Shown: one piece after another, positions 7,020-23,912 of the stretch
Position numbering within the stretch: the first letter of the stretch is position 1
Layout: each line of letters starts with the position of its first letter
Assembly (NCBI RefSeq): GCF_002927635.1
Contig: NZ_PRDS01000004.1
Coordinates: forward strand, 1-64,000
From: Albidovulum inexpectatum
GTDB lineage: Bacteria; Pseudomonadota; Alphaproteobacteria; Rhodobacterales; Rhodobacteraceae
DNA: 64,000 nucleotides
Reading direction: 5' to 3'
Notes under the pieces: model-generated
Database searches by the model: none
What the model was told of the DNA's origin: nothing
The model's input: the letters and a program-made list of their open reading frames with translations, nothing else
Made by a program: the position numbers and the translations under genes

Positions 7020-7766
7020 TCACACCGCGATCACCTCGCCGTCGCGGGCCAGGGCGTGGCGGGTCTGCTGCGCCCCGGTCATCAGCGCGGCATCCAGTTC
7101 GTGGTTCACGTGGATCAGCCGCGTGGCGGGTGCATCCAGTTCGTTCAGGATCGCCTCGGCCTCGGTCAGGTCGTTGTGGTTGCGCGGCTCCGGGCTGCCC
7201 GCGGGATAGGCGCAGTCCAGCAGCACCAGCCCGGGCCGGGCCGCGCGCAGCGCCGCGATCGTGGCAGGCTCCAGTCCGCGCGTATCGCTCAGCCATGCCA
7301 GGCGGCGGCCGTCGCATTCGATCACCCAGCCCAGCGTGGGGCGCGTATGGCTCAGCGCGACGGCGGTCACGCGGATCGGGCCCAGATCCAGTTCCTGACC
7401 CGGCACGACATGGTGGAACCGCAGCCGCCCGGGGCTTCTGGTCAGATCGTCGAACCCCGCCGGATCGTCCGGACACCAGACCGGCAGCGGCTCGGCCATG
7501 CTCCAGCGCATCAGCGCCAACCCCATCGCGTGATCGGCATGGAAATGGGTCAGCAGGACGCCATCCAGCGTGCCGGGTGGAAAGCGGTCGTTCAGATCGC
7601 AGCGTCCCGCATCGATCAGATAGCGCCGCCCGCCCGCCTCCAGCAGCGCCGAAGTCGGCGCCCGCGCCCGCGAAGGATCACGCCGCGCCGCCGCGCAGGC
7701 GACACATGCACAGCCATGGACGGGCGCGGCCCACACACCCCCGGTGCCCAGCAAGGTCAGACGCAT
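7020..7766 (-). CDS. phnP: PhnP-like phosphoribosyl cyclic phosphodiesterase
   Basis: A 248-residue metallo-beta-lactamase-fold hydrolase. PhnP opens 5-phosphoribosyl 1,2-cyclic phosphate in the C-P lyase pathway of phosphonate use. The N-terminal zinc-site cysteines are in CACVAC (C19, C21, C24), and the catalytic metals are bound by LTHFHADH (H74, H76, D78, H79), with later histidines in ALSHTRPT, DTRG and HVNHELD. Start taken at MRLTLLGTGG, a typical family N-terminus. No other phn genes are in the window, so it is an orphan, or its partners lie elsewhere. A related role on another cyclic phosphate or as a general MBL phosphodiesterase cannot be excluded. Confidence 0.85.
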   Translation of the reverse strand: MRLTLLGTGGVWAAPVHGCACVACAAARRDPSRARAPTSALLEAGGRRYLIDAGRCDLNDRFPPGTLDGVLLTHFHADHAMGLALMRWSMAEPLPVWCPDDPAGFDDLTRSPGRLRFHHVVPGQELDLGPIRVTAVALSHTRPTLGWVIECDGRRLAWLSDTRGLEPATIAALRAARPGLVLLDCAYPAGSPEPRNHNDLTEAEAILNELDAPATRLIHVNHELDAALMTGAQQTRHALARDGEVIAV

Positions 7767-7843
7767 CGCAACCCTCCATCCTGGTCGCACAGGACCCTAG
7801 CACCTTTGACGCGCGCCGCAATCGGCGCGTGTCCCGGCATCGG

Positions 7844-9181
7844 TCAGGCGGCAACCGCCCCGTCGGCCGTCCCGTCTGGCGCCCCGTCGGTCGTCCCGTC
7901 TGCCATCCGGTCATTGGCCATCTCGCGCGCATGGATCCCCAGGATCACAAGGCCGGGCCAGACCATGTAGGCCTCGATCTCCAGGTTCTCGCCAAAGGAC
8001 AGCAGCACGATGGTCATCACCACGCCCATGGGCAGGACCCCGCGCGGGCCGCGCGCGGCATCGGCCATCGTCACCAGCACCTGCCAGACCAGCGGCACCA
8101 GAAGCGCAAGGAACCCCACCAGTCCCTTGACGAACAACAGCCCATACCAGGTGTGATGGCTGCCGATCGGCATGTATTCCACCAGGTGCGGACCGGGCTG
8201 CACCGTGCCGTGGCCGAACCACACGGCCTCGTTCTGCCAGCGTTCCCAGGCGATGCGCTGCAGCGTCGCCCGCACGCGCGAGGAATCGGCCCGCGCGCTG
8301 AGAAACGCGTGCCTGGCGGTCTCGACCGTCTGAATCAGCCAGCCGCCGATCACCGCCACCGAGGCTGCAAGCCCCGCCAACACCTGCCAGGCCCATCCGC
8401 GCAGGACCAGCGGCATCATCCGCGGCCCCAGCGTGCAGGCCACCAGCCCCACCAGCCCCATGCGCGACTTCGAGGCCAGGATCATCAGCACGCCCCCCGC
8501 GATCCCCAGCGCCTTCCAGCGGGGCGACTTCTCCTCCAGCGCGAAGACGACCATGATCACGCCCAGCAACGCGGCAAAGGGCGACCACGGCGCATAGAAC
8601 TGCCAGCGCGGCGTCCAGTTCGACGGGTCATAGGTGAACAGGAAGACCGTGAAATATTCCGGCCCCGGCCCGCCGATCGCCTTCAGGGGCGAAGTAAAGA
8701 CCCGCTCGGGCAGGCCCAGATAGGGCGCGGCCAGCAGCACGGGCGCCACCGCCAGCGTCCAGGCCCCCACCACGCATTGCGCGCGGATCAGGATCTCTCG
8801 CCGGATCGGCAGGACCGAACCGGCCAGAATGAACAGCGCCAGAAGTGCCCAACCCTTGGCCCAGCCGATCGAGCTCTTGATCGTCTGCTTGGTGCCCAGG
8901 CCCCAGTCCAGATGCCCGACCCAAAGCGCAACCAGCATCGTCAGCATGCCCAGACCCCAGGCCCAGACGATGGGCGGCACCGGGCCCGTCGCGCGCAGGT
9001 CGGGGCGAATCGCGGGGCCCAGATACAGCGACAGCCCCGCCAGGAAGGCCAGCAGCCAGGCCAGGACCGGCCCCACGACGTAAAGCGCGCCGATTGCATA
9101 GAAGGGCCAGGTCAACACAAGCGCCTTCCAGACCATCCATTCGGCCGGATTGGCCGGGGTGACATCTGGCCCCTTGCTCAT
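7844..9181 (-). CDS. Wzy-like polysaccharide polymerase / O-antigen ligase family protein
   Basis: A 445-residue inner-membrane protein with about ten to twelve hydrophobic helices and a large periplasmic loop near residues 285-340 (ADSSRVRATLQRIAWERW, followed by FGHGTVQPG and IGSHHTWYG), the layout and motif style of the Wzy_C/O-antigen ligase family. In a Wzx/Wzy pathway it would polymerise lipid-linked repeat units in the periplasm. The start (MSKGPD) overlaps the stop of the Wzz-like gene by ATGA, so both are co-expressed from the promoter near 10.75 kb. The last 20 residues are a degenerate DG-rich repeat (DGTTDGAPDGTADGA) that looks like a slippage-prone tail, not a domain. Confidence 0.78.
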   Translation of the reverse strand: MSKGPDVTPANPAEWMVWKALVLTWPFYAIGALYVVGPVLAWLLAFLAGLSLYLGPAIRPDLRATGPVPPIVWAWGLGMLTMLVALWVGHLDWGLGTKQTIKSSIGWAKGWALLALFILAGSVLPIRREILIRAQCVVGAWTLAVAPVLLAAPYLGLPERVFTSPLKAIGGPGPEYFTVFLFTYDPSNWTPRWQFYAPWSPFAALLGVIMVVFALEEKSPRWKALGIAGGVLMILASKSRMGLVGLVACTLGPRMMPLVLRGWAWQVLAGLAASVAVIGGWLIQTVETARHAFLSARADSSRVRATLQRIAWERWQNEAVWFGHGTVQPGPHLVEYMPIGSHHTWYGLLFVKGLVGFLALLVPLVWQVLVTMADAARGPRGVLPMGVVMTIVLLSFGENLEIEAYMVWPGLVILGIHAREMANDRMADGTTDGAPDGTADGAVAA

Positions 9182-10677
9182 GCCGCGCGACCCTTGGCCA
9201 GAAGCCACCCGATCAGCGGGCCGCGGATCCAGCCCAGGACCAGCCCGATCAGCATCAGGACAGTCGCGGCAATACCCGCTGCGACAGCCAGCTTCGGACG
9301 GGGCGAAGACGGCTCATCGGGCAGGCTTGGATCTTCCAGCACCTGCACAAGCGGATACGAGCCATAGGGATCGGACTTGGTTGACTGGCTGCGCGCGATG
9401 GCCGAGGCAAAGACCGCTTCGGCCACGGCAAAGTCGCGTTGCAGGTCCTGCAACTTCGCGGCCAGGGGCGCCAGCTCGCGCAGCCGGGCCGTCTCGCGCT
9501 CCAACCGCGCGGATTGTTCCTGCCACTGGGCCTGCAGCCCCGCGCGCAAGGATTCATGGCGCACAAGCTCGGCCAGCAGCTCGGCGCGCGCACCGTCCGG
9601 CGCCAGGTCGATGCGGCCCAGAATCATTTCCGGCAGCCCGGTCAGAAACACGGCCCGCGTCAGCGCCTTGGTGCGCTCGTTGTAATAGGCCGCGCGCGCC
9701 CGTTCGACCTGTGGATGGTTCGGTCCATGCCGCGCATCCAGCTGCGCCAGCGTCGCCGCGCTGTCCGACATCTGACGCACGATGGCCAGATATTCCGCAT
9801 CGGCAAACAGCTTCAGCGCCGCCGCCGCCTGATCGGCGGTCAGGCCCAGCCGGTCCGACAGGCTCTGCACGATCTCTTCTTGCTGCTCAAGGCTTGCGCG
9901 CAATCCTTCCACCTCGGCGCGCAGGCGGTCATTCTCGGCCACCATTGCGTCATATTGATCGATCGACAACAGCCCCGTCCTTTTCTGCAACTCGGTGATC
10001 GCCGCGCGCGTGCGCTGGACGGATGCGCGATATTCCTCGATCGCCCCATCGCCGCCAGAGGCGCGGGATTGCGTCTCGTCCGCGCGCAGCCGGTCAAGCT
10101 CGGCATAGAAGGCCTGCATCACGGCGTTCAGCCGCGCCTGCGCGTCCTCGGGCGTTTCGCCGGTCATCTGGACGTGGATGAGCCCGGTCTGATCGACCAG
10201 CGTGATGCGCGGCGCGCCCAGATCGCGCGTGTCGATCCCCAGGCTGGCCGCGGCAGCTGCCAATATCCGATTGGCCGAAATCAGCCGCTTGTAGGTTTCG
10301 GTCGGGCTGACCGCGTTGCTGGCAAAGGCCGAGTTCGAATAGGACGTGGCCTGCCCGATATCGTCCAGGTTGACCGAGGCCGACACGCCCGATCCGGGCA
10401 GGATCAGCGACATCGAGGACGTATAGCGCACCGGCGCGGTCTTCAGATAGGTCAAGATCGGCACCCAGATCGCCGCCACGCCCAGCAGGAACACCGCCGC
10501 ATAGCGCGGCAGCCGCCCGCCATCGCCCAGCCGCCCGCCCATCAGCACGCGCCGCAGGGACAGATGCCGCAGCGGCATGCGCCAGAGAAGCCCGCGCCGG
10601 CGCGGAGTCAAGACGGGTTCAAATGGCAGTTCCGGGTCGTCACCATCGGGCGCGCGCAGCACATCTCGCAAGAACAT
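9178..10677 (-). CDS. Wzz-like polysaccharide chain-length determinant (PCP family)
   Basis: A 499-residue inner-membrane polysaccharide co-polymerase. A transmembrane helix follows a 55-residue cytoplasmic arm (YAAVFLLGVAAIWVPILTYL). A periplasmic domain of about 380 residues comes next with long coiled coils (about 200-400, AVAENDRLRAEVEGLRA onward), ending in a Pro-rich segment and the second helix (AGIAATVLMLIGLVLGW). No tyrosine-kinase domain is attached. It would set polymer length together with the Wzy-like protein, whose gene overlaps it. The start is chosen at the Met of MFLRDV because GGAG lies 6 bases upstream; a second ATG two codons earlier has no room for a ribosome site. A copy of the shared locus motif lies about 95 bp upstream. 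Confidence 0.85.
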   Translation of the reverse strand: MFLRDVLRAPDGDDPELPFEPVLTPRRRGLLWRMPLRHLSLRRVLMGGRLGDGGRLPRYAAVFLLGVAAIWVPILTYLKTAPVRYTSSMSLILPGSGVSASVNLDDIGQATSYSNSAFASNAVSPTETYKRLISANRILAAAAASLGIDTRDLGAPRITLVDQTGLIHVQMTGETPEDAQARLNAVMQAFYAELDRLRADETQSRASGGDGAIEEYRASVQRTRAAITELQKRTGLLSIDQYDAMVAENDRLRAEVEGLRASLEQQEEIVQSLSDRLGLTADQAAAALKLFADAEYLAIVRQMSDSAATLAQLDARHGPNHPQVERARAAYYNERTKALTRAVFLTGLPEMILGRIDLAPDGARAELLAELVRHESLRAGLQAQWQEQSARLERETARLRELAPLAAKLQDLQRDFAVAEAVFASAIARSQSTKSDPYGSYPLVQVLEDPSLPDEPSSPRPKLAVAAGIAATVLMLIGLVLGWIRGPLIGWLLAKGRAA

Positions 10678-10743
10678 CGGCATCTCCTTTGGCCGTGTTC
10701 TAGCGCCATCCATGCGCTTTTGCCTGCACGAGCCCGGATGATT

Positions 10744-10785
10744 CCGGATGACGGATGGATGGGTCCTTATCCGCCCGGATAGGGT
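10744..10785 (-). promoter_or_regulatory. Shared EPS-locus inverted repeat, copy 1 (upstream of the Wzz-like gene)
   Basis: Read on the minus strand: CCCTATCCG GG CGGATAAGG, followed by ACCCATCCATCC. The palindrome core covers 10765-10784 on the plus strand, about 95 bp upstream of the Wzz-like start. Three more copies in the same orientation relative to a downstream gene lie near 11484, 13998 and 18549. There is no T-run, so a terminator for the response regulator gene ending at 10786 is a weaker explanation, though the position would also fit that. Confidence 0.7.
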
Positions 10786-11400
10786 TCAGAACAATCCTGC
10801 GTCCCGCGCCACGATGGCCGCCTGCGTGCGGTTCGAGACGTCCAGCTTGCGATACAGGGTCTTCATGTGCAGCTTGACCGTGGGTTCGGTCAGGTCCAGA
10901 TCGCGCGCGATTTCCTTGTTGGACTTGCCCTCGGTCAGGCCCTTCAGCACCTGCAGCTCGCGCCGGGTCAGCCTTTCGGCCAGCGGGTTCGTCGCGGCGT
11001 CCTCCTGCGCGGTCATGAACGAGATGGGGGCGTATTGCTCGCCCATCGCCATGAACTTGATCGCGTTGACCAGCGACTTCGCCGGCAGGGTCTTGGGCAC
11101 GAACCCGGCCGCGCCGGCCTCCAGCACCCTTTCGGCGAACTCCCGGCTGGCCTCGCCCGAGATGATCGCCACGCGCTGGCCGCCCGCCAGCTCCATTGCC
11201 TCGCGCAGGCTGTTCAGCCCCTGCATCCCCGGCATCTTGTAGTCCAGCAGCACCAGATCAAAGGGCCCGCGCGCCACGATCGCCTCGCAGGCCGCGCGGA
11301 AATCCGGCGCGGTCTCGGTCTCGATCCCCCCCTCGGCCCCCAGATAGGCCACCAACATGTCGCGCAGCAGGTCGTGATCGTCGGCAATCAGGATTCTCAC
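10786..11400 (-). CDS. LuxR/NarL-type response regulator of the EPS locus
   Basis: A 204-residue two-component DNA-binding regulator. The receiver domain (1-120) has the acidic pair D7/D8, phospho-acceptor D53 in LLDYKMPG, the switch Ser in IISGEA and the lysine in FVPKTLP. A GerE/LuxR helix-turn-helix occupies about 138-200 (LTRRELQVLKGLTEGKSNKEIA, then TVKLHMKTLYRKL). The start is GTG, preceded by GAGGG. It sits between the Wzz-like gene and the fused transferase gene, inside a locus where every control region carries the same inverted repeat, including one about 75 bp upstream of its own start. It is therefore the obvious candidate for binding that repeat. The hybrid kinase gene 3 kb away, with an HPt domain, is a likely phosphodonor. 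Confidence 0.9.
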   Translation of the reverse strand: MRILIADDHDLLRDMLVAYLGAEGGIETETAPDFRAACEAIVARGPFDLVLLDYKMPGMQGLNSLREAMELAGGQRVAIISGEASREFAERVLEAGAAGFVPKTLPAKSLVNAIKFMAMGEQYAPISFMTAQEDAATNPLAERLTRRELQVLKGLTEGKSNKEIARDLDLTEPTVKLHMKTLYRKLDVSNRTQAAIVARDAGLF

Positions 11401-11473
11401 GTCTGTCCCTCAATTTTCCCGCATGACGAATATTTCCCTCCACGCACGAAATCGCAAGGAGATTCGGGCCTCG

Positions 11474-11503
11474 TCCCATCCGAACGGATAGGTGCCCGAC
11501 CCG
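11474..11503 (+). promoter_or_regulatory. Shared EPS-locus inverted repeat, copy 2 (between regulator and fused transferase genes)
   Basis: The sequence CCCATCCG AA CGGATAGG occupies 11475-11492 and is followed by the tail TGCCCGACCC. It lies about 75 bp upstream of the GTG of the divergent response regulator and about 160 bp upstream of the fused GT26/phosphoglycosyltransferase. The tail orientation points to the latter gene. The remainder of 11401-11645 shows no gene. Confidence 0.7.
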
Positions 11504-11645
11504 GCCAGAGAGGCCCCCCACCGGATCGTTCAGGGTGCCTGATCTTCTGCGCCTTGACCTGTCCGCCCGCTCGATTGCCGCAAAGGACAAGCGCCCCGCA
11601 TCTTCGGGACAACGACGAACGCAACACGATGCAAGGCGCAAACCG

Positions 11646-13049
11646 ATGTTCCACAATCCCCGTCTCGACACCGCCCGGGCCATCCCGGTTCCCTCGGACC
11701 TCCCGCGCGAGGTCGCCGGCACGCTGCCCACGGTCCAGGTGCTGACCCATGCCGTCGCCGATGCGACCGTCGATCAGGCCGTCGATGCGCTGCTGCAGCG
11801 GCCCTGCAAACGGGTCTTCTTCCTGAACGCCCATTGCGCCAATGTCGCCGCGCGCGACCCGCTTTACGCCAGCGCGCTGCGCCGAGCCGACCACATCCTG
11901 CCCGACGGTATCGGGATCGAACTTGCCGCCCGCCTGCGCGGCAATCGCCTGACCGCCAATCTCAACGGCACCGACTTCATCCCCGCCCTTCTGCGCGAAG
12001 CCGCCCGGCGGGGGCTATCGGTCTTTCTGTTTGGCGCGCGCCCCGGCACGGCCGAACGCGCCGCCGACCGCCTGATCCGCGACATACCCGGCCTGCGCGT
12101 CCTGGGCACGATGGACGGCTATGACGACGCACAGGACGAAGAGGCCGCCATTGCCCGGATCAATGCCTCTGGCGCGGACATCCTGCTGGTGGCCATGGGC
12201 GTGCCACAGCAGGAATTGTGGATCGACCGCAATGCGGAACGCCTGAATACGCGGCTGAACCTTGGCGTCGGCGCGTTGTTCGATTTCCTGGCCGGCAACG
12301 TTCGCCGCGCGCCCGCAATCGTGCGCAAGGCGCGCATGGAATGGGCCTGGCGCCTCGCGGTCGAGCCGCGCCGCATGGCTGGCCGCTACCTGATCGGCAA
12401 TTTCACCTTCATGGCCCGCGCCATCGGCCAGCTTGTGCCACGGTCGCGCGTGACCGATCTTGTCAAGCGCACGCTCGACATTGCGCTTGCAGGCGCCGGG
12501 CTGATGGCGCTGTCACCTCTGTTTGCGCTGATTGCACTGGCGATCCGGCTGGACAGCCCCGGCCCGGTCTTCTTCACCCAGCGTCGGGTGGGCAAGAACG
12601 GCTGCGCCTTCCGCATGTACAAGTTTCGCTCGATGCATGTCGATGCCGAGGCGCGCCGGGCCCAGCTGCTGGACAATTCGGACCGCGAGGGCGTGTGTTT
12701 CAAGGCGCGCAACGATCCGCGCGTGACCCGCGTCGGCCGTATCCTGCGCCGCACCTCGCTGGACGAGCTGCCGCAACTCATCAACGTCCTGCTGGGCCAT
12801 ATGTCGATGGTCGGGCCGCGCCCCGCCCTGCCCGAGGAAGTCGCGGCCTATCCCGCCCGGGCCCTGGAGCGGCTCAGCGTCCGTCCGGGCCTGACCGGGC
12901 TGTGGCAGGTCTCGGGCCGCGCCGATATCGGCTTTGACAAGATGATCGACATGGACGTGGCCTATGCCAATTCGCGCTCGACCCTGCTCGACCTGCTTCT
13001 GATCGCAATGACCTTCCGCGTCGTGCTCACGGGGCACGGTGCCTACTGA
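11646..13049 (+). CDS. Fused GT26 (WecG/TagA/CpsF) glycosyltransferase and WcaJ-type phosphoglycosyltransferase
   Basis: A 467-residue two-domain enzyme for the start of repeat-unit synthesis. Residues about 30-250 are a WecG/TagA/CpsF domain: FFLNAHCANVA, the ADHILPDGIG catalytic-Asp region (D87), NGTDF, GVPQQELW and LGVGALFDFLAG. Residues about 265-467 are a bacterial sugar transferase: the KRTLDIALAGAGLMALSPLF membrane hairpin, QRRVGKNG, YKFRSM, the catalytic Asp-Glu of SLDELPQ (D373/E374), MVGPRPALP and RPGLTGLWQVSGR. The C-terminal part would load the first sugar-1-phosphate on undecaprenyl phosphate, and the N-terminal part would add the next sugar. Start taken at MFHNPRLD. galU follows after 30 bp, most likely in the same transcript. 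Confidence 0.9.
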   Translation: MFHNPRLDTARAIPVPSDLPREVAGTLPTVQVLTHAVADATVDQAVDALLQRPCKRVFFLNAHCANVAARDPLYASALRRADHILPDGIGIELAARLRGNRLTANLNGTDFIPALLREAARRGLSVFLFGARPGTAERAADRLIRDIPGLRVLGTMDGYDDAQDEEAAIARINASGADILLVAMGVPQQELWIDRNAERLNTRLNLGVGALFDFLAGNVRRAPAIVRKARMEWAWRLAVEPRRMAGRYLIGNFTFMARAIGQLVPRSRVTDLVKRTLDIALAGAGLMALSPLFALIALAIRLDSPGPVFFTQRRVGKNGCAFRMYKFRSMHVDAEARRAQLLDNSDREGVCFKARNDPRVTRVGRILRRTSLDELPQLINVLLGHMSMVGPRPALPEEVAAYPARALERLSVRPGLTGLWQVSGRADIGFDKMIDMDVAYANSRSTLLDLLLIAMTFRVVLTGHGAY

Positions 13050-13079
13050 CCTCCGGCCATCCATACAGGAGATTTTCCT

Positions 13080-13973
13080 ATGACGCATATCCGCAAGGCC
13101 GTCTTTCCCGTCGCGGGGCTTGGCACCCGCTTTCTGCCCGCCACCAAGTCGGTGCCCAAGGAGCTGCTGCCTCTGGTCGACCGCCCGCTTATCCAGTACG
13201 CGGTGGACGAAGCCCGCGCCGCCGGGATCGAGGAATTCATCTTTGTCTCGGCCCCCGGCAAGACCGCGCTCGAGGATTACTTTTGCGCCCATGCCGCGCT
13301 CGAGCGGCAACTGGCCGACAAGGGCAAGACCGATCTCATCGAACGCCTCGCCCCGACGCGGATGCCCGAAGCCGCGCTGACGATCATCCGCCAGGACATG
13401 CCGCGCGGCCTGGGCCATGCCGTCAGCCTTGCCCGCCGGCTTGTTGGGGACGAACCCTTTGCCGTGCTCCTGCCCGATGACGTGATCCGCGCGCCCAAAG
13501 CCGCGCTGGCCCAGATGGTGCAGGCCCATGCCCGCACCGGCGGCCACATGGTCGCCACGATGCAGGTGCCGCGCGCGCAGGTCTCGGCCTATGGCATTCT
13601 GGATTGCGACGAAGACGCCGCGCGGGGCCGGCTGTTGCGCGCCCGCGGGCTGGTGGAAAAGCCCCGCCCCGAATGCGCGCCCTCGACCCAGGCGGTGATC
13701 GGCCGCTATATCCTGATGCCCGACATCTTCGACCGGCTGGAACGCCAGGGCCCCGGCGCGGGCGGCGAGATCCAGCTGACCGACGCGATCAATGCCGATG
13801 TCGAAACCGTCGGCGTCACGGGCTATGCCTTCGATGGCGAACGTTTCGACTGCGGCTCGATCCAGGGCTTTGTCGAGGCGACATTGGCCTTTGCGCTGGA
13901 CCGGCCCGAGCTGGCCGCGGGCCTGCGCGCGCGCATCGACCGTCTGGCGGGCAACGACCGCTTCGCGGCCTGA
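13080..13973 (+). CDS. galU: UTP-glucose-1-phosphate uridylyltransferase
   Basis: A 297-residue nucleotidyltransferase that makes UDP-glucose from UTP and glucose-1-phosphate, a precursor for the exopolysaccharide. It opens with the diagnostic VFPVAGLGTRFLPATKSVPKE binding loop, followed by DRPLIQYAVDEA, LGHAV, FAVLLPDDVI, the GLVEKP loop and GEIQLTDAI. An AGGAG ribosome site precedes the ATG. Length matches GalU of other Proteobacteria (about 295-300). It probably forms an operon with the fused transferase upstream. Confidence 0.96.
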   Translation: MTHIRKAVFPVAGLGTRFLPATKSVPKELLPLVDRPLIQYAVDEARAAGIEEFIFVSAPGKTALEDYFCAHAALERQLADKGKTDLIERLAPTRMPEAALTIIRQDMPRGLGHAVSLARRLVGDEPFAVLLPDDVIRAPKAALAQMVQAHARTGGHMVATMQVPRAQVSAYGILDCDEDAARGRLLRARGLVEKPRPECAPSTQAVIGRYILMPDIFDRLERQGPGAGGEIQLTDAINADVETVGVTGYAFDGERFDCGSIQGFVEATLAFALDRPELAAGLRARIDRLAGNDRFAA

Positions 13974-13984
13974 TCCGTGAACGG

Positions 13985-14026
13985 GGGCGCCTACCCGAAC
14001 GGATAGGCGCCCATCCCGATGCCCGG
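13985..14026 (+). promoter_or_regulatory. Shared EPS-locus inverted repeat, copy 3 (upstream of the SUOX-fold/kinase pair)
   Basis: The longest copy. GGGCGCCTACCCG (13985-13997), two spacer bases, then CGGATAGGCGCCC form a 13-bp inverted repeat with one mismatch, followed by the tail ATCCCGATG. Its centre is about 100 bp upstream of the SUOX-fold gene start at 14100. It also lies just after galU, so a contribution to termination is conceivable, but no T-run follows. A more AT-rich stretch at about 14051-14073 (GTTTAATCAATTCGTAACC) may hold the promoter. Confidence 0.7.
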
Positions 14027-14099
14027 ATGACCGCCTCGGGCCAGACCGCTAGAAGTTTAATCAATTCGTAACCGAAACATGCCATCCCCGAGGACGACC

Positions 14100-14624
14100 A
14101 TGACCCTGCCCCGCATTGCCCATCACCTGCGCGCCGCGCTGATCGGCGCACTTGCCCTTCTTTTCGCCCAGCCCGCGCTGGCGGATCTGCCGCGCCCGCA
14201 AGGCCCGGTCATCCTGACCATCACCGGCCAGATCGCCGAAACGAATGCCGAAGGCGCGGCCGAATTCGATCTGGACATGCTGCGCGCCCTGCCCGCCGAA
14301 ACCATCCGCACGACCACCATCTGGACCGAGGGCGAACAGGAATTCACCGGCGTGCCGCTGCAGGCGCTGCTGGATCATGTCGGCGCGACGGGAACGACCC
14401 TGCGCGCGGTCGCGATCAACGACTATGCCGTGGACATTCCCGCCTCGGACGCGGCCGAAGGCGGCCCGATCCTGGCCTATGAACGCAACGGCGCGCCGAT
14501 GTCGGTCCGCGACAAGGGGCCGCTGTGGATCGTCTATCCCTATGACTCAGACTCGCGCTATCGGACCGAGGTGATATATTCGCGCAGCATCTGGCAACTG
14601 AACCGCATCGATGTCACCGACTGA
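14100..14624 (+). CDS. Periplasmic SUOX/YedY-fold protein without molybdenum-ligand cysteine
   Basis: A 174-residue exported protein. Residues 1-29 form a Sec signal peptide ending ALA-D. The rest resembles the oxidoreductase molybdopterin-binding (SUOX/MsrP) fold in its short form: VILTITGQI, FDLDMLRALP, TGVPLQALLDHVGA, LRAVAINDYAVDIP, ILAYERNGAPM, GPLWIVYPYD. No cysteine occurs anywhere in the mature protein, so the usual Mo-ligating Cys is absent and enzyme activity is unlikely. It overlaps the hybrid kinase gene by 14 bp, which suggests that it senses or presents a periplasmic signal to the kinase. ATG at 14100 is preferred over 14079 because of GAGGA six bases upstream and the clean signal peptide. 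Confidence 0.7.
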   Translation: MTLPRIAHHLRAALIGALALLFAQPALADLPRPQGPVILTITGQIAETNAEGAAEFDLDMLRALPAETIRTTTIWTEGEQEFTGVPLQALLDHVGATGTTLRAVAINDYAVDIPASDAAEGGPILAYERNGAPMSVRDKGPLWIVYPYDSDSRYRTEVIYSRSIWQLNRIDVTD

Positions 14625-17244
14625 CACGCCAGAACGGGCACATGCCCTGCGGCGCCTCGTGCGCCGCCTTCGCCCCGGCCCGCGCCGGGGCTATGCCCTT
14701 CTGGGGCTGGTCACGCTGATCTGCCTTCTGTCGATCGTCACGCTGGGCCAGGCGGTGATGCGCGATCTGAACCTGCTGCGCCAGGCCAGCTCCGACAACG
14801 TGCAATGGACCCTGTCCCAGGCCGAGGTCGAGTTTCTCTATTTCGAAAAGGCGCTGGACCACGCGCTGGTCGCCCCCGGTGACGACCGCAGCCCGGTGGT
14901 GACGAAATTCGACGTCTTCTACAGCCGCATCAACACGCTGGCCCACGGCGCGTTATATGCCGATCTGCGCGAAATCCCCGATTTCATGGCCCCGCTGCGC
15001 CAGATCCAGGATTTCCTGGACCAGGCCGTCCCGGTGATCGACGCGATCGACAGCGCGCCGATCGCGCGGCTGCAACAGCTCGAAGAGGCCAGCGAAAAGA
15101 TCGCCCCCGTCGTGCGGCAGCTGTCCAATGCCGGCCTGTTCCACTTTGCCGCCCAGTCCGACCTGCGCCGAAATGGGATCGCGGTCACGCTGCAACGGCT
15201 GGCGCTGGCCACCGCCGCGATGATCGGCGCGCTGGGTCTGATGGCGCTGCATTCCTTCCGCCTGGGCCGCGCCGCGCAAAACAGCGCGCAGGCGCTGGAA
15301 CAGGCCTGGCTGCGGCTGAACACGGTGGTCCAGACATCGCTGGACGCGGTGATCGTGACCGACCGCCACGGCCGCGTGCTCGAGTTCAACCCGGCGGCCG
15401 AACGGATCTTCGGCTATCGCTTCATCGATATCGAGGGGCGCAAACTGGGCGACCTGATTGTGCCCCCCGACCAGCGCCAGGCGCATGAGGACGGCCTGCG
15501 CCGCATGAACGAAAGCGGCGAAACCCGCGTGATCGGCGCGGGGCGGGTACAGATGACGGCGATGCGCGCCAATGGCGAAACCTTCCCGGTCGAGATGGCG
15601 CTGGAAAGCGCGGGCCCCGAGGACAACCGCATCGTCATCGGCTTTCTGCGCGACATCACCGCGCGGCTGGCCGCCGAACGGGAGCTGGTCGAGGCCCGCG
15701 ACCGCGCGCTTGCCGGCGAAAAGGCCAAGGCCGAATTCCTGGCCATGATGACGCACGAGATCCGCACCCCCCTGAACGGCGTGATCGGCAGCCTGTCGCT
15801 GTTGCAGGAAACCGCGCTGACCGACCGCCAGCGGCGCTATGTCAACAACATGGCCCTGTCGGCCCAGCAGCTGATGCACCACGTCAACACGGTGCTGGAC
15901 ATCGCGCGCTTTGAATCGGGCATCGTCGAGGCGGCCGAGCGTCCGACCCATCTGGGCCGGCTGGTGCAGGACATCGTGGACGCGCAAGAGGGCCACGCGG
16001 CCCGGAACGGCAACAGCCTGCAATGGTCGTGGGAAAGCGAACCGCGGGACTGGGTGATGGCCGATGCCGTCCGGCTGCAGCAGATCCTGCTGAACCTCGT
16101 GGGCAATGCGATCAAGTTCACCCGCAACGGCCGCGTCGCGATCGAGCTCGAGGCCCTGCCCGACTGCGATCAGCCGGGCAAGACCTGCATCGAGTTTCGC
16201 GTGATCGACACCGGCATCGGCATTCCCGAATCCGCGCAGGCCCGCATCTTCGAGGATTTCCAGTCCGTCGAACCCAGCCTGCAGCGCCAGACCGGCGGCA
16301 CGGGGCTGGGCCTTGGCATCGTGCGCCGGCTGGTCACCGCGATGGGCGGCGAATACGGCGTGGAAAGCGAACCCGGCCAGGGCAGCGTGTTCTGGGTGCG
16401 CCTGCCGCTTGCCCCGGCAGAGCCGTCCGAGGACGCGCGCCCCGCCCGCGCCAGCGCCGGACGGTCGCGGCCGCTGGACGTGCTTCTGGTCGAGGACAAC
16501 GAGATCAACCGCGAGCTGGCGCGCGAGATGCTCGAACTCGAAGGCCACCGCGTGACCACCGCCCCCGATGGTCTTGCAGGGGTGAGCGCCGCCAATGACC
16601 ACCGCTATGACCTGATCCTGATGGACATTTCGATGCCGGTGATGGACGGGCTGGAAGCCTGCCGCCGGATCCGCATGGGCGAAGGCAGGTCGCGCAACAG
16701 CCCGATCGTGGCGCTGTCGGCCAATGTCCTGCCCCAGATGCGCGACCGCATCCTGCAGGCCGGCATGTCGGGCTTTCTGGGCAAGCCGATGCGGGTCGAG
16801 GATCTGCGCGCCCTTCTGGCCCGGATCGACGCGCCCGCCGACCAGCCGGCCGATGACACCGCGCCTTCCCGACAGGACCCGGCCGATCCCGCCCCAGAGG
16901 GTCCCGCCGCAAAGGATCGCGCCCCAAGGGATCGCACCGATGACGGCCACGCGCCCGGCCAGCCCCCGGACCCGGTGATCGCCCGCCTGCGCGACAGGTT
17001 CCGGCAGGAAACAGACGCCCTGTTCGACTGGCTCGCCACCTCGCCGCAGGACGTGGCCGAGATCGCCGCGCGCTGTCACAAGATCGCCGGCAGCGCCGCG
17101 GCCTTCGGCCATCTTGCGCTGCGCGACGCCCTGGTCGCCATCGAGACGCGCGCAGCCCAGGGCGCCGGCCCCGCCGATCTGGCCCCGCTGGTCGACGCCG
17201 CCCGCGCCGCCTGGCTCAGTCCAGCAGCAGCGCCGCGCCCATGA
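14611..17244 (+). CDS. Hybrid sensor histidine kinase (TM-PAS-HisKA-HATPase-REC-HPt)
   Basis: An 877-residue inner-membrane phosphorelay kinase. Helix 1 is about 27-49 and helix 2 about 193-214, enclosing a periplasmic helical domain of about 145 residues. Then come PAS (about 236-350, FLRDIT), HisKA with phospho-His H382 in THEIRTPLNG, HATPase (N499 in LLNLVGNAIKF, DTGIGI, TGGTGLGL), receiver with D672 in LILMDISMPVMDG and K725 in LGKPM, a Pro/Ala/Asp-rich linker (about 740-785), and HPt with H823 in CHKIAGSAAAFG. This multi-step layout (BarA/ArcB-like) usually ends on a separate response regulator; the LuxR-type regulator at 10.8-11.4 kb is the best candidate. It overlaps the SUOX-fold gene, and its 3' end overlaps the convergent Wza-like gene by 29 bp. 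Confidence 0.92.
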   Translation: MSPTDTPERAHALRRLVRRLRPGPRRGYALLGLVTLICLLSIVTLGQAVMRDLNLLRQASSDNVQWTLSQAEVEFLYFEKALDHALVAPGDDRSPVVTKFDVFYSRINTLAHGALYADLREIPDFMAPLRQIQDFLDQAVPVIDAIDSAPIARLQQLEEASEKIAPVVRQLSNAGLFHFAAQSDLRRNGIAVTLQRLALATAAMIGALGLMALHSFRLGRAAQNSAQALEQAWLRLNTVVQTSLDAVIVTDRHGRVLEFNPAAERIFGYRFIDIEGRKLGDLIVPPDQRQAHEDGLRRMNESGETRVIGAGRVQMTAMRANGETFPVEMALESAGPEDNRIVIGFLRDITARLAAERELVEARDRALAGEKAKAEFLAMMTHEIRTPLNGVIGSLSLLQETALTDRQRRYVNNMALSAQQLMHHVNTVLDIARFESGIVEAAERPTHLGRLVQDIVDAQEGHAARNGNSLQWSWESEPRDWVMADAVRLQQILLNLVGNAIKFTRNGRVAIELEALPDCDQPGKTCIEFRVIDTGIGIPESAQARIFEDFQSVEPSLQRQTGGTGLGLGIVRRLVTAMGGEYGVESEPGQGSVFWVRLPLAPAEPSEDARPARASAGRSRPLDVLLVEDNEINRELAREMLELEGHRVTTAPDGLAGVSAANDHRYDLILMDISMPVMDGLEACRRIRMGEGRSRNSPIVALSANVLPQMRDRILQAGMSGFLGKPMRVEDLRALLARIDAPADQPADDTAPSRQDPADPAPEGPAAKDRAPRDRTDDGHAPGQPPDPVIARLRDRFRQETDALFDWLATSPQDVAEIAARCHKIAGSAAAFGHLALRDALVAIETRAAQGAGPADLAPLVDAARAAWLSPAAAPRP

Positions 17245-18448
17245 TCCCCATGACCCGGCCGACCTCGGCCAGGTTCGTGACCGAGGAATCGTAGCACGCG
17301 ATCGCATCGCCGGGCAGCAGATAGGGGTCGTGGTCGTCGCGCTCGGCCCGGCGCAGCATCTTTTCGATATCGCGTTCGATCACGGCGGACACGCCGGTCA
17401 CGGGATTGCGCGTGAACAGCACCGCCGAGCGGTTGGCCGAGGTCGCCCGCGCCCCGCCCACGCAGTTGGCATCGACCACCGCCTGCATCATCCGCGTGCC
17501 ATAGGGCACCTCGCGCACCTCGCGCCCGATGGCCGAAGGCGCATTGCCCGTCGCGGGCTGGGTCAGGTTCGACAGGTACAGGCTGACGCCCGGCGGGCTG
17601 ATCGGGCCCGGCCGCATCAGGTCGTCCTGAAAGCAGTCGCGGCTGGGCACGCGAATCTCGTCGCCGGTCAGCAGCATCACGTCCGCGTCCGGGTCGCGGC
17701 CATGGAACATCTCGCGCAGGTCCAGCCGGTAAAGCCGCCCGCCGCGCCGCAGCTCGACCGCCGAAAGATCCGCATCCGGCCGGATCCCGCCGGCCGAGCG
17801 GATCGCCGCCGACAGGTTGCGCGCCTCGGTCGAGGCACCGATGGCCAGTTGCCGCTCGGTATCGATCCGGTCGCCCGGCGTGCCGCCGATCTCGGAGACG
17901 CGCGGCTCGAACACCGCGCCGTCGATCGCCACCGTGACCGAGGCCCAGTCCCGCACCCGCACCGACAGCCGCGGCGGGCTGTCGTAGAATCCGTTGGCGA
18001 TCAGCGCGAGGGTCATGTCGGCCTCGACCTCGTCGGTGCTGCGGCCCTGCGCCGGGATCGGGTCCAGATAGGGCAGCTTCAGCATCCCGTCGCGCGAGAT
18101 GACATAGGACCCGCTCAGCGTCTCGTCCCCGTCGATGCGCACGTCCAAGAGGTCGTTGCGGCTCAGCTTCTCGCCGCGCAGGGCGGCGATGTCCAGCCCC
18201 GCGCCCTTGCCCATGGCATCGCCCGCCACCGCGCCGCCCAGCGGCGGGCGGCACCGCGCGGCGTTCATCTCGCGCGCGCGCAGGACCAGCGGATCGGGCG
18301 AACGCGCCGGCAGGTCGCGATACTGCGCCTGATAGCCCAGCCCGCGCGAGACCGGCTCGACATTGCGCGGGGGCGCCGTGCCCGCACAGCCCGCAACCGC
18401 CAGAATCGCAAGCCCCGATACCAGGTCATTGAGCCGCAAGGATCTCAT
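17216..18448 (-). CDS. Wza-like polysaccharide export lipoprotein
   Basis: A 410-residue outer-membrane polysaccharide export (OPX) protein. It has a lipoprotein signal with lipobox VAGC (Cys21). The poly-export domain (about 80-180) contains LSRNDLLDVRIDGDETLSGSYVISRDG followed by LKLPYLDPIPAQG. Two SLBB-like segments follow, with VAIDGAVFEPRVSEIGG, LSAAIRSAGGIRPDADLSAVELRRGG and LLTGDEIRVPSRDC. It would form the outer-membrane conduit for the polymer made by the Wzy/Wzz system. The start is MRSLRLND; the C-terminal hydrophobic stretch (VGRVMGIMGAALLLD) is short. It is divergent from the flippase gene, with a shared inverted repeat between them. Confidence 0.88.
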   Translation of the reverse strand: MRSLRLNDLVSGLAILAVAGCAGTAPPRNVEPVSRGLGYQAQYRDLPARSPDPLVLRAREMNAARCRPPLGGAVAGDAMGKGAGLDIAALRGEKLSRNDLLDVRIDGDETLSGSYVISRDGMLKLPYLDPIPAQGRSTDEVEADMTLALIANGFYDSPPRLSVRVRDWASVTVAIDGAVFEPRVSEIGGTPGDRIDTERQLAIGASTEARNLSAAIRSAGGIRPDADLSAVELRRGGRLYRLDLREMFHGRDPDADVMLLTGDEIRVPSRDCFQDDLMRPGPISPPGVSLYLSNLTQPATGNAPSAIGREVREVPYGTRMMQAVVDANCVGGARATSANRSAVLFTRNPVTGVSAVIERDIEKMLRRAERDDHDPYLLPGDAIACYDSSVTNLAEVGRVMGIMGAALLLD

Positions 18449-18537
18449 CCATTCGTCCGCCGTCGATGTTTCCCCATGGTTGTATGGGCCAAGCACGCCC
18501 GAAGGCAACAGCGGCGTGACGCCCCTTTGGCGCGGTC

Positions 18538-18573
18538 GCCCTATCCGGTCGGATAGGCGGCCAACCCGATGCG
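18538..18573 (+). promoter_or_regulatory. Shared EPS-locus inverted repeat, copy 4 (between Wza-like and flippase genes)
   Basis: GCCCTATCCG GT CGGATAGGCGG is centred at about 18548, followed by the tail CCAACCCGATG. The tail points to the flippase gene, whose start is about 100 bp downstream; the divergent Wza-like start is about 95 bp away on the other side. The remaining intergenic DNA (18449-18652) shows no gene. Confidence 0.7.
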
Positions 18574-18652: not shown

Positions 18653-19894
18653 ATGACCCCGCACGTCTCCAGCATCGGCACGCTTGCCCGCAATCTTGTC
18701 GCCTATGGCGCGTCCGAGGCCGCGGCGAAACTGTCGCGCCTGTTCGTCGTCGTGGCGGTGGCCCACCGGCTGGACCCGGTGCAGATCGGCATCGCCGCAA
18801 CCGCGCTGGCCGCGGCCGACATCCTGAAGGCGCTGACGGAAAACGGCGTCATCCAGCGCATCATCCTGGCCCCGGCCGACCGGCTGGCCGCGACCTGCCT
18901 GACCGCGCATCGCATCTTCTGGGCCTGGTGCGGGGGGTTGTTCGTGCTGCAATCGCTGGTGGCGCTTGGCGTCTGGCTGTCGGGCGCGGACCCGCTGGTC
19001 GCGGCGCTGATCCTGATGCTGGCGGGCGAATACCTGTTCATGCCCGGCGGGCTGATCCAGGCGGGACTGGCGATGCGCCAGGGCAAGCTGCGCCAGACCG
19101 CGGCCATCGCGGGGGCGCAGATCGTGCTGTCAAACATCCTGGCCGTGGTGATCGCGCTGGTCTGGCCCTCGGCGCTGGCGCTGATCCTGCCGCGTCTTCT
19201 GACCGCGCCGCTGTGGCTGGTGCTGATGCGCCGGCTGGCCCCCTGGCGGCCCGAACCCGGGGTGACGCCCGCGCCGATCGGCCCCTTCCTGCGCTATGGC
19301 TGGGCCGTGCTGGGGGTCGAGCTGGTCAAGGCCATGCGCCTGCAGGCCGACAAGCTGGTCGTCGGCGCGCTTCTGGGGGCGCAGATGCTGGGCATCTATT
19401 TCATGGCCTTCAATGCGGGCCTGTCGATCGCCAGTTCCTTCTCGACCGCCTTTGCCACGGTGCTGTTCCCGCATCTGTGCGGGGCCGATGACCGCGCGAC
19501 GGCCCTGCGCCAATCCATCCTGATGAGCCTTGGGCTGGTCACGCCGATCGTGCTTGCCCAATCGCTTCTCGCGCCCATCTATGTGCCGATGCTTCTGGGG
19601 CACGCCTGGGCCCAGCACGCGCCGGTCGTGTCCGTCCTGTGCCTTGCGGCCATCCCCGCCATGCTGTGGACTGCCGCAGCGGGCTGGCTGCGCGCCGCCG
19701 ACCAGCCGCACAAGGAATTCCTGGTCACGCTGGCGCTGACTGCGCTTCTGATCCTGAACACCGTCCTTCTGGCGCCGCGCGGGCTGCTGGCGATTGCCAC
19801 GGGCTATACGATCGTCACCTGGACGGTGCTGTGCGCCGCCTCGGTGCCCGCGCTGATCCACGCCTTTGGCCCCCGACTGACCGCAAGGGTGTAA
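18653..19894 (+). CDS. Wzx-like flippase (MOP superfamily polysaccharide transporter)
   Basis: A 413-residue protein of almost continuous hydrophobic helices (about twelve) with Arg-rich connecting loops, as in the oligosaccharide flippases of the MOP superfamily. The N-terminus (GTLARNLVAYGASEAAAKLSRLFVVVAVAHRLDP) matches the usual first helix pair of Wzx/RfbX proteins. The helix-7 region (RYGWAVLGVELVKAMRLQADKLVVGALLGAQMLGIYFMAF) carries the typical A-D-K-x-x-V-G motif. It would flip undecaprenyl-linked repeat units for the Wzy-like polymerase. It opens a cluster continued by three glycosyltransferases, with only three bases to the next gene. Confidence 0.85.
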   Translation: MTPHVSSIGTLARNLVAYGASEAAAKLSRLFVVVAVAHRLDPVQIGIAATALAAADILKALTENGVIQRIILAPADRLAATCLTAHRIFWAWCGGLFVLQSLVALGVWLSGADPLVAALILMLAGEYLFMPGGLIQAGLAMRQGKLRQTAAIAGAQIVLSNILAVVIALVWPSALALILPRLLTAPLWLVLMRRLAPWRPEPGVTPAPIGPFLRYGWAVLGVELVKAMRLQADKLVVGALLGAQMLGIYFMAFNAGLSIASSFSTAFATVLFPHLCGADDRATALRQSILMSLGLVTPIVLAQSLLAPIYVPMLLGHAWAQHAPVVSVLCLAAIPAMLWTAAAGWLRAADQPHKEFLVTLALTALLILNTVLLAPRGLLAIATGYTIVTWTVLCAASVPALIHAFGPRLTARV

Positions 19895-21840: not shown

Positions 21841-22860
21841 ATGACCCGACTGAAAGTTGCCCATCTTGTCGACGACACCACCGCCGGGGGCGTGATGCGC
21901 CTTCTGGACTTCATCTGCACCAATCCCGACATGGCGCGCCATGCCGACCACCAGATGCATGTCGTGCGCCGCGGGGCCTTTGGCCTGCGCCGCATCCCGG
22001 CCGACGTGATCGTTTCGCACCTGTCGATCAGCTGGCGCAACCTGCCTGCCCTGGTCGCGCTGCGCGCCACCCATGCGCGTCAGAAGATCGTCCATGTCGA
22101 ACATTCCTATACGCGCCAGTTCACCGCGCTGAACGTGCCGAAGGTCGATCGCTTCATGACGCTACTGCGCGTGGCCTATGCCCTGTTCGACCATGTCGTC
22201 GCGGTCAGCCGCGACCAGGCCAACTGGATGGCGCAGCGCAACCTGGTGATCCATGGCACGCCCAGCGTCATCCCCCCGATGGTGGACCTGTCCCGCTTTG
22301 CCGAACTGGCCGATCCCGTCCGCCCGCCGCGCCGGATCGGGGCGATCGGGCGGCTTGACCGGCAAAAGGGCTTTGACCTGCTGATCCCGGCCTTCCGCGC
22401 CCTGCCCGACCGCGACCTGCGGCTGATCTTCTATGGCGACGGCCCCGAACGCGCGGCTTTGCAGGAACTGGCCGGCCAGGATCCCCGCATCCGCTTTGTC
22501 GGCCATCTGTCGGACCCGGTCCTGGCCATGGCCAATGTCGATGCCGTCGCCATGCCCTCGCGGTGGGAGGCCTATGGCCTTGTCGCGCGCGAGGCCCGCG
22601 CCGCCGGTCGCCCGGTTCTGGTCGCCCCGCATGACGGGCTGCGCGATCAGGTCGCCGATGGCGCGGTCCCGGTCATGCCCTATACCGAAAACGGCTGGAC
22701 CGCGGCGCTTTCGCGGCTGGTCGCGGGCCAGGTCAGCCCCGCGCCACGGCCCGACATCGCGCGCCATACGCGGGATTTCGTCACCGCATGGACCACGCTT
22801 CTGGACCGCCTGACCGGCGCGGATCAGGCCGCCGAACAGCCCCGCGCTCAGGTCGCCTGA
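21841..22860 (+). CDS. GT4 family glycosyltransferase
   Basis: A 339-residue GT-B glycosyltransferase (glycosyl transferases group 1). The N-terminal Rossmann half starts KVAHLVDDTTAGGVMRLLDF. The C-terminal half has RRIGAIGRLDRQKGFDLLIPAF, LIFYGDGPERAALQELA, IRFVGHLSDP and the donor-site acidic motif PSRWEAYGLVAREARAAG (E-x7-E type). It closes the flippase operon; its last 13 bases overlap the convergent DNA-binding protein gene. GGAG lies seven bases before the ATG. Confidence 0.92.
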   Translation: MTRLKVAHLVDDTTAGGVMRLLDFICTNPDMARHADHQMHVVRRGAFGLRRIPADVIVSHLSISWRNLPALVALRATHARQKIVHVEHSYTRQFTALNVPKVDRFMTLLRVAYALFDHVVAVSRDQANWMAQRNLVIHGTPSVIPPMVDLSRFAELADPVRPPRRIGAIGRLDRQKGFDLLIPAFRALPDRDLRLIFYGDGPERAALQELAGQDPRIRFVGHLSDPVLAMANVDAVAMPSRWEAYGLVAREARAAGRPVLVAPHDGLRDQVADGAVPVMPYTENGWTAALSRLVAGQVSPAPRPDIARHTRDFVTAWTTLLDRLTGADQAAEQPRAQVA

Positions 22861-23912
22861 ACCGGGGCGCGCAGCCGCGCGCGCCACATGCGAAAGCGCC
22901 CCTGGCCGGTGACCTCGCGGATCAGCCCGGCGCGCTGCATCCAGGCCAGGTTGCGCTGAACCGCCGCACGGCTGGCGCCGGTCAGCTTCTCGGCCATGGG
23001 GGCCGAGACCAGCGGCCATTCGACCATCACCCGGACCAGCGCGGGCGGCGTGCGGCCCGACAGGCCCGCGATCTGGTCCTGCGCCCGCGCCTGCCAGGTC
23101 TGAATGTCGTCCAGATGCCGCATGGCCGCGCGGATGGCATCCTCCATCCCCTCGATCCAGCGGCGCAGGCGCTGCTCGACCGGGCCCGAGGCGCGCAGCG
23201 CCCCCGCCCCGCCCAGCGACAGGGGCGCAAAGACCGCGCCGCGGCATTCCTCCGCCGCGATGCGCGCGGCGGTCACGGCGGCCTCCAGCCGGTCGCCGGG
23301 GTTGTCCAGACCGGCCAGCGCCCACAGATGGAACCCCATCGCCGCCCGCGCGATCGGGTGCAGGGCCCGCGCCGCCTCCATCATCCCGGCCCAGGCGCTG
23401 GCGCGGTCCGACAGGCTTTCGGCGCCGGGCGCCATCTCGCGCGGGTCGCGGCGGCCCAGGAAGTCGGCCAGCCCCTCCATCGGGCCGGGGCCGCCGGTCA
23501 GCCGCCGCACCGCCCAGGCGGCGCGGGTCAGCGCGGCCATGTCGTCCTGCACGCCCGACAGGCGCAGCGCCACCCAAAGCGCCAGCCGATCGGGCGCGAT
23601 GCGGTCGCCGGTGAACCAGCCCAGCTCGGCCGCCTCGATCAACGCCAGCCGGTGACGCCAGCCTTCGGGCCCCCGCGCCAGCCGTTCGTCCAGCGCGCCC
23701 AGCCGCTGGGCCAGCCGGGCCAGCGGCATTGCCAGCGCCGCCTGCGCCGCCAGCCATTCGGCCACGATGTCCGATTCCCCCGGCTGGCGCGACGCGCCCG
23801 GCAGGAGCGGGTCGGGCTCTGGCGCCGGTTCGGCCGGGCCGGGCAGGAACCACGGCTCCTCTGACATCTGACCGGTCATGTCGTCATCGCGCTGCGTCAT
23901 GGCCGCAACCAT
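22848..23912 (-). CDS. RHE_PE00001-like DNA-binding protein (DUF1612/HTH)
   Basis: A 354-residue protein. The central helical region (about 55-260; ARLAQRLGALDERLARGPEGWRHRLALIEAAELGWFTGD) resembles the DUF1612 domain of the RHE_PE00001 family found on rhizobial plasmids. The C-terminal 90 residues end in a helix-turn-helix (PMAEKLTGASRAAVQRNLAWMQRAGLI) followed by a wing-like VTGQGRFRMWRA. Family members are common on plasmids and genomic islands and are presumed regulators; no target is known. The N-terminal 45 residues are Pro/Asp-rich and disordered. An internal Met at residue 5 or 12 could be the true start. Confidence 0.65.
   Translation of the reverse strand: MVAAMTQRDDDMTGQMSEEPWFLPGPAEPAPEPDPLLPGASRQPGESDIVAEWLAAQAALAMPLARLAQRLGALDERLARGPEGWRHRLALIEAAELGWFTGDRIAPDRLALWVALRLSGVQDDMAALTRAAWAVRRLTGGPGPMEGLADFLGRRDPREMAPGAESLSDRASAWAGMMEAARALHPIARAAMGFHLWALAGLDNPGDRLEAAVTAARIAAEECRGAVFAPLSLGGAGALRASGPVEQRLRRWIEGMEDAIRAAMRHLDDIQTWQARAQDQIAGLSGRTPPALVRVMVEWPLVSAPMAEKLTGASRAAVQRNLAWMQRAGLIREVTGQGRFRMWRARLRAPVQAT

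Follow-up and report, generated by a model that had tools for sequence, protein, structure and literature searches.

The subject of this study is a short palindromic element, referred to below as the box, which occurs four times in the exopolysaccharide (EPS) locus of Albidovulum inexpectatum (assembly GCF_002927635.1, contig NZ_PRDS01000004.1, positions 1 to 64,000; this whole stretch of 64 kb is called the window). A sequence-only reading of the same DNA had described a small autoregulated EPS regulon, in which the box would be bound by a LuxR-type response regulator encoded within the locus. Here the box, the genes around it and their counterparts in related genomes were analysed computationally.

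Genes of the locus

The proposed binder is a LuxR/NarL-type response regulator (10786-11400, minus strand) with a REC domain (PF00072, E-value 2.8e-20) and a GerE domain (PF00196, 4.6e-21), an arrangement shared with NarL/FixJ regulators; among the 25 of its 81 NCBIfam matches listed, none reached its cut-off. On the same strand lie wzz, coding for a Wzz/EpsF-like chain-length protein (9178-10677) whose NCBIfam EpsF match is below cut-off, and, in the wzz operon, the gene for a Wzy-like membrane protein (7844-9208), which gave no Pfam or NCBIfam match and is named by position and look. On the plus strand follow wecG-pst, which encodes a fused WecG/TagA glycosyltransferase and sugar phosphotransferase (11646-13049; PF03808, PF02397), a GalU-type UTP-glucose-1-phosphate uridylyltransferase (13080-13973; TIGR01099, 8e-91, slightly under cut-off), a SUOX-fold protein (14079-14624, with its start at 14079 or 14100) and a hybrid histidine kinase (14611-17244) with PAS, HisKA, HATPase, REC and Hpt domains in that order (Pfam). 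A Wza-like polysaccharide export lipoprotein (17216-18448, minus strand; PF02563) is divergent from a Wzx-type flippase (18653-19894, plus strand; PF13440), the first gene of a further cluster. Directly after the glycosyltransferase cluster, at 22848-23912 on the minus strand, is a gene for a weakly RHE_PE00001-like protein with a C-terminal HTH_13 domain.

The SUOX fold had been recognised in the earlier reading, which missed the pterin family; by its sequence the protein is a PruR, a member of a periplasmic pterin-binding family. It matches Protein Data Bank entries 7KOS (E = 4.6e-43), 7RKB (2.4e-38), 7KP2 (6.5e-27) and 7KOM (4.8e-20), and by eye it has a hydrophobic stretch ending in PALADLP. 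It contains no cysteine, and its Tyr110 and Trp166, aligned to 7KOS without a gap, are 56 residues apart, as are the pterin-site residues Tyr104 and Trp160 in Agrobacterium tumefaciens numbering (PMC13259868). The overlapping kinase gene is directly downstream, and its product carries a WX7E motif (WTLSQAEVE, residues 66-74), a trait of DcpA and of the "DTB" (DcpA-TorS-BaeS) kinases. These features place the pair, by sequence, among the PruR-DTB systems, for which the available part of PMC13259868 likewise describes pruR immediately upstream of the kinase gene, a PruR lacking the Moco cysteine and having the pterin-site tyrosine and tryptophan, and a kinase with WX7E, PAS, HisKA, HATPase and REC; a Ruegeria pomeroyi example is cited there.

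Four boxes in the window

The core of the box is the palindrome CCTATCC-N4-GGATAGG. When the pattern CCTATCCGNNCGGATAGG was searched at up to three mismatches, exactly four matches were obtained in the window, three with one mismatch and the fourth with none, while shuffled windows gave a mean of 0.34 matches and none of 100 reached four. A symmetric matrix trained on 179 boxes from other genomes scored the four boxes at 27.1, 26.6, 25.0 and 17.4 and the next site at 6.8, and a site as good as the fourth box appeared in one of 60 Markov-simulated 64-kb sequences. The coordinates, strands and tails of the four copies, and the absence of any other copy in the window, therefore stand as originally described.

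Box 1 (10766-10783, minus strand, CCTATCCGGGCGGATAAG) is directly past the stop codon of the regulator gene and before wzz, a place shared by relatives. Box 2 (11475-11492, plus strand, CCCATCCGAACGGATAGG) lies between the divergent regulator and wecG-pst, in a position suited to autoregulation, and box 3 (13990-14007, plus strand, CCTACCCGAACGGATAGG) is upstream of the pruR-kinase pair. Box 4 (18540-18557, plus strand, CCTATCCGGTCGGATAGG) is the copy without mismatches and separates the divergent wza-like and wzx genes. Probable starts of the genes downstream are 10677 for wzz (a choice aided by a Shine-Dalgarno sequence conserved in relatives), about 11646 for wecG-pst, 14079 or 14100 for pruR and 18653 for wzx. 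The orientation of the boxes towards these genes was thus as first reported, and the distance from palindrome to start, given previously as 80-160 bp, is corrected to about 70-155 bp. As had also been noted, box 2 faces the regulator (start 11400) and box 4 the wza-like gene (start about 18448) as well.

In the organism's own genome (3.0 Mb in 27 contigs), where more degenerate box-like sites were examined in part, one further site with at most one mismatch to CCTATCC-N4-GGATAGG was found (C7:102523); it lies inside an open reading frame, has no tail and was rejected as a further box.

A third half-site downstream of the palindrome

The asymmetric tail, correctly recognised before as conserved beyond the palindrome, can be described more closely as a third half-site, CTATCC-like and in direct orientation, which lies some two helical turns further downstream. 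In box 3 it is CCATCC at 14011-14016 (plus strand), 20 bp after the first half-site. Box 1 has CCATCC at offset 22-27 (10757-10762, minus strand; 5/6 to CTATCC) and, further along, TCATCC at offset 43-48 (10736-10741), and box 4 has CCAACC at offset 22-27 (18561-18566, plus strand; 4/6).

Boxes from relatives were aligned in reading direction and the best extra match to CTATCC was recorded by offset, in z-scores that, like the Fisher tests below, are uncorrected for shared ancestry. The class upstream of pruR (56 rows) has a direct half-site at offset 22 (mean 3.79/6, z = 15.7), and the class between wza and wzx (34 rows) has one at offset 43 (mean 4.18/6, z = 14.2), where the half-site of box 4 in the window is weak. 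Beyond the wza/wzx box, the strongest -35-like and -10-like matches that are not part of a box fall at offsets 59 and 83, with a separation of 18 bp and z = 8.5 each, so that the offset-43 half-site sits just upstream of the putative -35 element. For the pruR box the same search yielded no clear -10 or -35, and a promoter is for this reason claimed for wzx alone. In the wza/wzx intergenic region of relatives, a block of approximately GCGccCgnGAC is strongly conserved at box offsets 53-63, and part of it may be the -35 element; the block and Shine-Dalgarno alignments used one box per locus, with the 12 boxes of class "other" left out.

These features also bear on the idea that the palindrome works in RNA, as a hairpin, attenuator or terminator, instead of as a protein site on DNA. 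The box is a good inverted repeat, box 1 comes directly after the stop codon of the regulator gene, and the paired change from CTATCC/GGATAG to CTATAC/GTATAG found in far clades would preserve a hairpin. The copies nevertheless precede divergent genes on both sides, the direct third half-site has nothing to pair with, a run of T is absent downstream, and half-site bases hardly vary within the main clade, where pairing maintained through varied bases is not seen. We consider a role in RNA very improbable.

Conservation in related loci

The best 80 named loci with the regulator were collected, some of their stretches being cut by contig ends. According to tblastn, the kinase was present around 76 of them, PruR around 69, wzz, wzy and wecG-pst around 44 each and galU around 29; loci with both wzz and wecG-pst are termed EPS-type. 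With up to two mismatches the box was found in 66 of the 80 loci: in all 44 of the EPS type, in 19 of 26 that have PruR and the kinase and lack wzz, wecG-pst or both, in two of six with the kinase only and in one of four with the regulator alone. With up to one mismatch the respective numbers were 40, 16, 2 and 0. Six control palindromes gave 22 hits in 264 tests in the EPS-type loci and 3 in 156 in the PruR and kinase group at up to two mismatches, and 3/264 and 0/156 at up to one.

The expectation that boxes in relatives would flank EPS genes is thus borne out, and their presence in PruR and kinase loci lacking wzz/wecG-pst in the fetched stretch is what autoregulation predicts; in 16 of these 26 loci a box is upstream of the regulator, within 400 bp. 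Five loci of this group (L045, L070, L075, L055 and L096) have a glycosyltransferase downstream of the kinase (Pfam), and polysaccharide genes are therefore common but not exclusive neighbours of the module. Some genomes contain two PruR-kinase-regulator modules each (L144/L069 in G200, L125/L126 in G026 and L135/L045 in G193), and in G026 and G193 one module is beside EPS genes and the other has none nearby.

At up to three mismatches, a level at which some chance boxes are included, syntenic places were occupied across the 80 loci at the regulator end (43), upstream of the regulator (46), upstream of pruR (56) and at wza/wzx (34). A chance or dispersed repeat, such as a mobile palindrome family, might be suggested by the palindromic form, the one point found in its favour. 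All four good copies in the 3.0-Mb genome, however, are at this one locus, flanking sequences differ between box copies, and such an origin is refuted by synteny in dozens of loci.

Co-occurrence with the regulator across genera

A second sample comprised one genome per genus (149 genomes of 148 genera, the window's own included), with the regulator counted as present at an E-value of at most 1e-50. Among the 60 genomes with the regulator 18 had the exact box, against one of the 89 without it (Fisher p = 1.7e-7), and the exact reversed-pattern control was found in none of the 149. At one mismatch the box was present in 46/60 and 18/89, respectively. Matches were not scattered, since 23 of the 29 exact box places in these genomes are within 10 kb of a regulator orthologue. 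The Wzy marker was detected in 16 genomes, 15 of which have the regulator; the remaining one has a diverged Wzy (53%) and no box within one mismatch. In both genomes in which the regulator and the EPS locus are on different contigs (G027 and G157), the EPS locus keeps two boxes.

The box also fades with the identity of the regulator. Among the 78 regulators of this sample, those with a box (up to two mismatches) at a distance of no more than 1 kb numbered 19 of 25 at 62% identity or above (18 of 24 if the window's own is excluded), 6 of 18 at 55-62%, 5 of 28 at 50-55% and none of 7 below 50%. On the regulator tree, many forks of which are weakly supported, the box label needs 16 changes, compared with a mean of 24.3 when shuffled, and none of 500 shuffles was as low. 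As for the taxonomic spread of the regulator, orthologues in other genera reach 70-75% identity and none in 21 sampled genomes of the same genus exceeds about 51%; the locus may therefore have been gained laterally, or lost in sister species.

When every 6-base palindromic half-site in the 350 bp preceding the regulator was enumerated, CTATCC-N4 ranked first in the near clade (10 of 25, with a null maximum of 1.6), whereas in far clades CTATAC-N4 came first (10 of 46) and CTATCC second (7 of 46; null maximum 2.0). An upstream site within one mismatch of one of four half-site types was found for 28 of 78 regulators. Regulators with an EPT helix have C-type versus A-type sites in the ratio 9:0 and those with EVT or EAT in the ratio 4:8 (one-sided p = 0.0024, two-sided 0.0046, ancestry uncorrected; 2 and 5 ambiguous or other types, respectively, left out). 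The co-occurrence of box and regulator is clear and their co-variation is partial. Binding by this regulator, as originally suggested, is strongly suggested by the former and less strongly by the latter.

Another transcription factor, encoded elsewhere, could bind the box, with the LuxR-type regulator being a co-regulated passenger of the EPS locus. This would accommodate the 6 exact boxes, out of 29, for which no regulator was present within 10 kb, as well as the genome that has an exact box and no regulator (G024). It fits poorly with a box that tracks the regulator across genera, that becomes rarer as regulator identity falls, that precedes it even where wzz/wecG-pst are missing and whose half-site tends to differ by regulator clade, and we judge it decidedly unlikely.

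Boxes away from the locus

Unlinked boxes were sought, among the loci without wzz/wecG-pst, in the genomes of 20 of 36, and a selection of 17 unlinked places was fetched (L134-L150). Four of them belong to related contexts: another EPS locus with its own regulator (L135), a second module (L144), a PruR-kinase pair (L147) and an EPS cluster of another kind, in which a Poly_export gene, a pyruvyl transferase and a flippase occur (L140). The pair in L147 has an exact box (L147:6272), no regulator gene was found adjoining it, and the regulator of that genome is on another contig (G172:C1). In genome G198, the boxes of L140 and L141 are near open reading frames with similar N-termini (L140:1448-3835, minus strand; L141:4342-5919 and 7757-9322, minus strand), which are perhaps one family of secreted or surface proteins. 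The small EPS regulon first envisaged, which is supported as such, can be refined to one that belongs to a PruR/hybrid-kinase/regulator module and would also reach unlinked EPS loci.

Discussion

We put the probability at about three in four that the box is the operator of the regulator at 10786-11400, that this regulator receives its input through pterin, PruR and the kinase, and that its targets are EPS genes and its own module. Given the presence of PruR and a DTB-type kinase, the unit is probably a pterin-sensing relay that ends in a three-half-site operator at EPS genes. The signal would most likely be a periplasmic pterin bound by PruR, a step suggested by family membership; PruR would contact the hybrid kinase at its periplasmic domain, and phosphate would pass from the kinase to REC, from there to Hpt and then to the regulator. 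A regulator dimer probably binds CTATCC-N4-GGATAG, with a third subunit or a second dimer taking the direct CTATCC-like half-site 20-41 bp further downstream. The third half-site would be placed just upstream of the promoter, and the effect is most likely activation of transcription, which position alone suggests. Predicted targets are the regulator's own gene, the PruR/kinase operon (box 3) and the wzz-wzy, wecG-pst-galU, wza and wzx operons, of which wzz is assigned to box 1, wecG-pst to box 2 and the flippase cluster to box 4.

A number of observations weigh against this interpretation. No box with up to two mismatches was present in the fetched stretch of 14 of the 80 loci, nor within 1 kb of 6 of the 25 closest regulators, and for 50 of the 78 regulators none of the four half-site types was found upstream with one mismatch or fewer. 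Chance matches are common at one mismatch, the reversed control being found in 28 of 149 genomes, and C-type sites persist in 4 of the 12 clear far-clade cases. No third half-site is seen in the regulator-upstream class (46 rows), and the peak of the regulator-end class at offset 43 (2.77/6, z = 7.4, 43 rows) is not conclusive because stray peaks outside the box reach 8.4. In a simple frame search, WX7E was found in 65 of 76 kinases of relatives, and PruR was detected beside just 47 of 78 regulators in the genus sample. Finally, 13 of the 17 unlinked places show no gene of this locus by tblastn, and the three of these that were scanned with Pfam all flank non-EPS genes: a LigB dioxygenase and an aminotransferase (L139:5960), an aldo/keto reductase and an amidohydrolase (L142:6398), and a carboxymuconolactone decarboxylase-like gene with an ECF sigma factor close by (L149:6250). 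Two or three of these boxes have well-formed tails, and they may be further targets or chance.

The box may alternatively be the operator of this regulator with an input other than PruR and its kinase, be it another kinase or an action that needs no phosphorylation. Hpt-bearing hybrid kinases can signal to other regulators, and with the kinase at 76 and PruR at 69 of the 80 loci, each is sometimes not found. Against this, the pruR-kinase operon itself bears the box whose third half-site is the best, and across genera the stretches fetched around 68 of the 78 regulators contain the kinase; these stretches cover about 3 kb a side, some less, and the kinase and PruR counts are therefore too low, the window's own stretch having been scored without both. 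An input of this kind is unlikely, if less so than a different binding factor. We retain the PruR/kinase pair as the probable input.

The NarL heptamer operator is, like the box, a short inverted repeat whose half-sites are spaced by about 10 bp. The box differs from it in its CTATCC half-site, in the N4 between 7-mers and in the third, direct half-site at +20/+41.

The A. tumefaciens PruA-PruR-DcpA system also has a PruR-type protein controlling surface polysaccharide and attachment (PMC13259868), but there the output is c-di-GMP via DcpA, whereas for the present locus we infer that the signal runs through a phosphorelay and acts on transcription directly. Histidine kinases linked to PruR are said to be widespread, and the available part of PMC13259868 names no output for them, and for the PruR-DTB systems no response regulator, operator or targets; the present locus adds a dedicated regulator and, at the EPS genes, a box with three half-sites. 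Among the titles and abstract openings listed from the open-licence literature, a scope outside which the primary PNAS paper falls, nothing was found naming the box or the output of a PruR-DTB kinase.

It may be proposed tentatively, at somewhat less than even chances, that throughout the Rhodobacteraceae PruR acts via the hybrid kinase and a dedicated regulator to switch on EPS operons, in cis and in trans, through the three-half-site operator. This would constitute a c-di-GMP-independent transcriptional arm of pterin signalling, perhaps sensing redox state or the pterins of neighbours or algae. The box offers a ready reporter readout: the operator is known, a regulator and target operons are predicted, and the genera concerned include culturable ones. 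It would also supply a motif with which the regulon could be mapped across many genomes, and would tie pterins to the making of surface polymers in a major group of marine bacteria.

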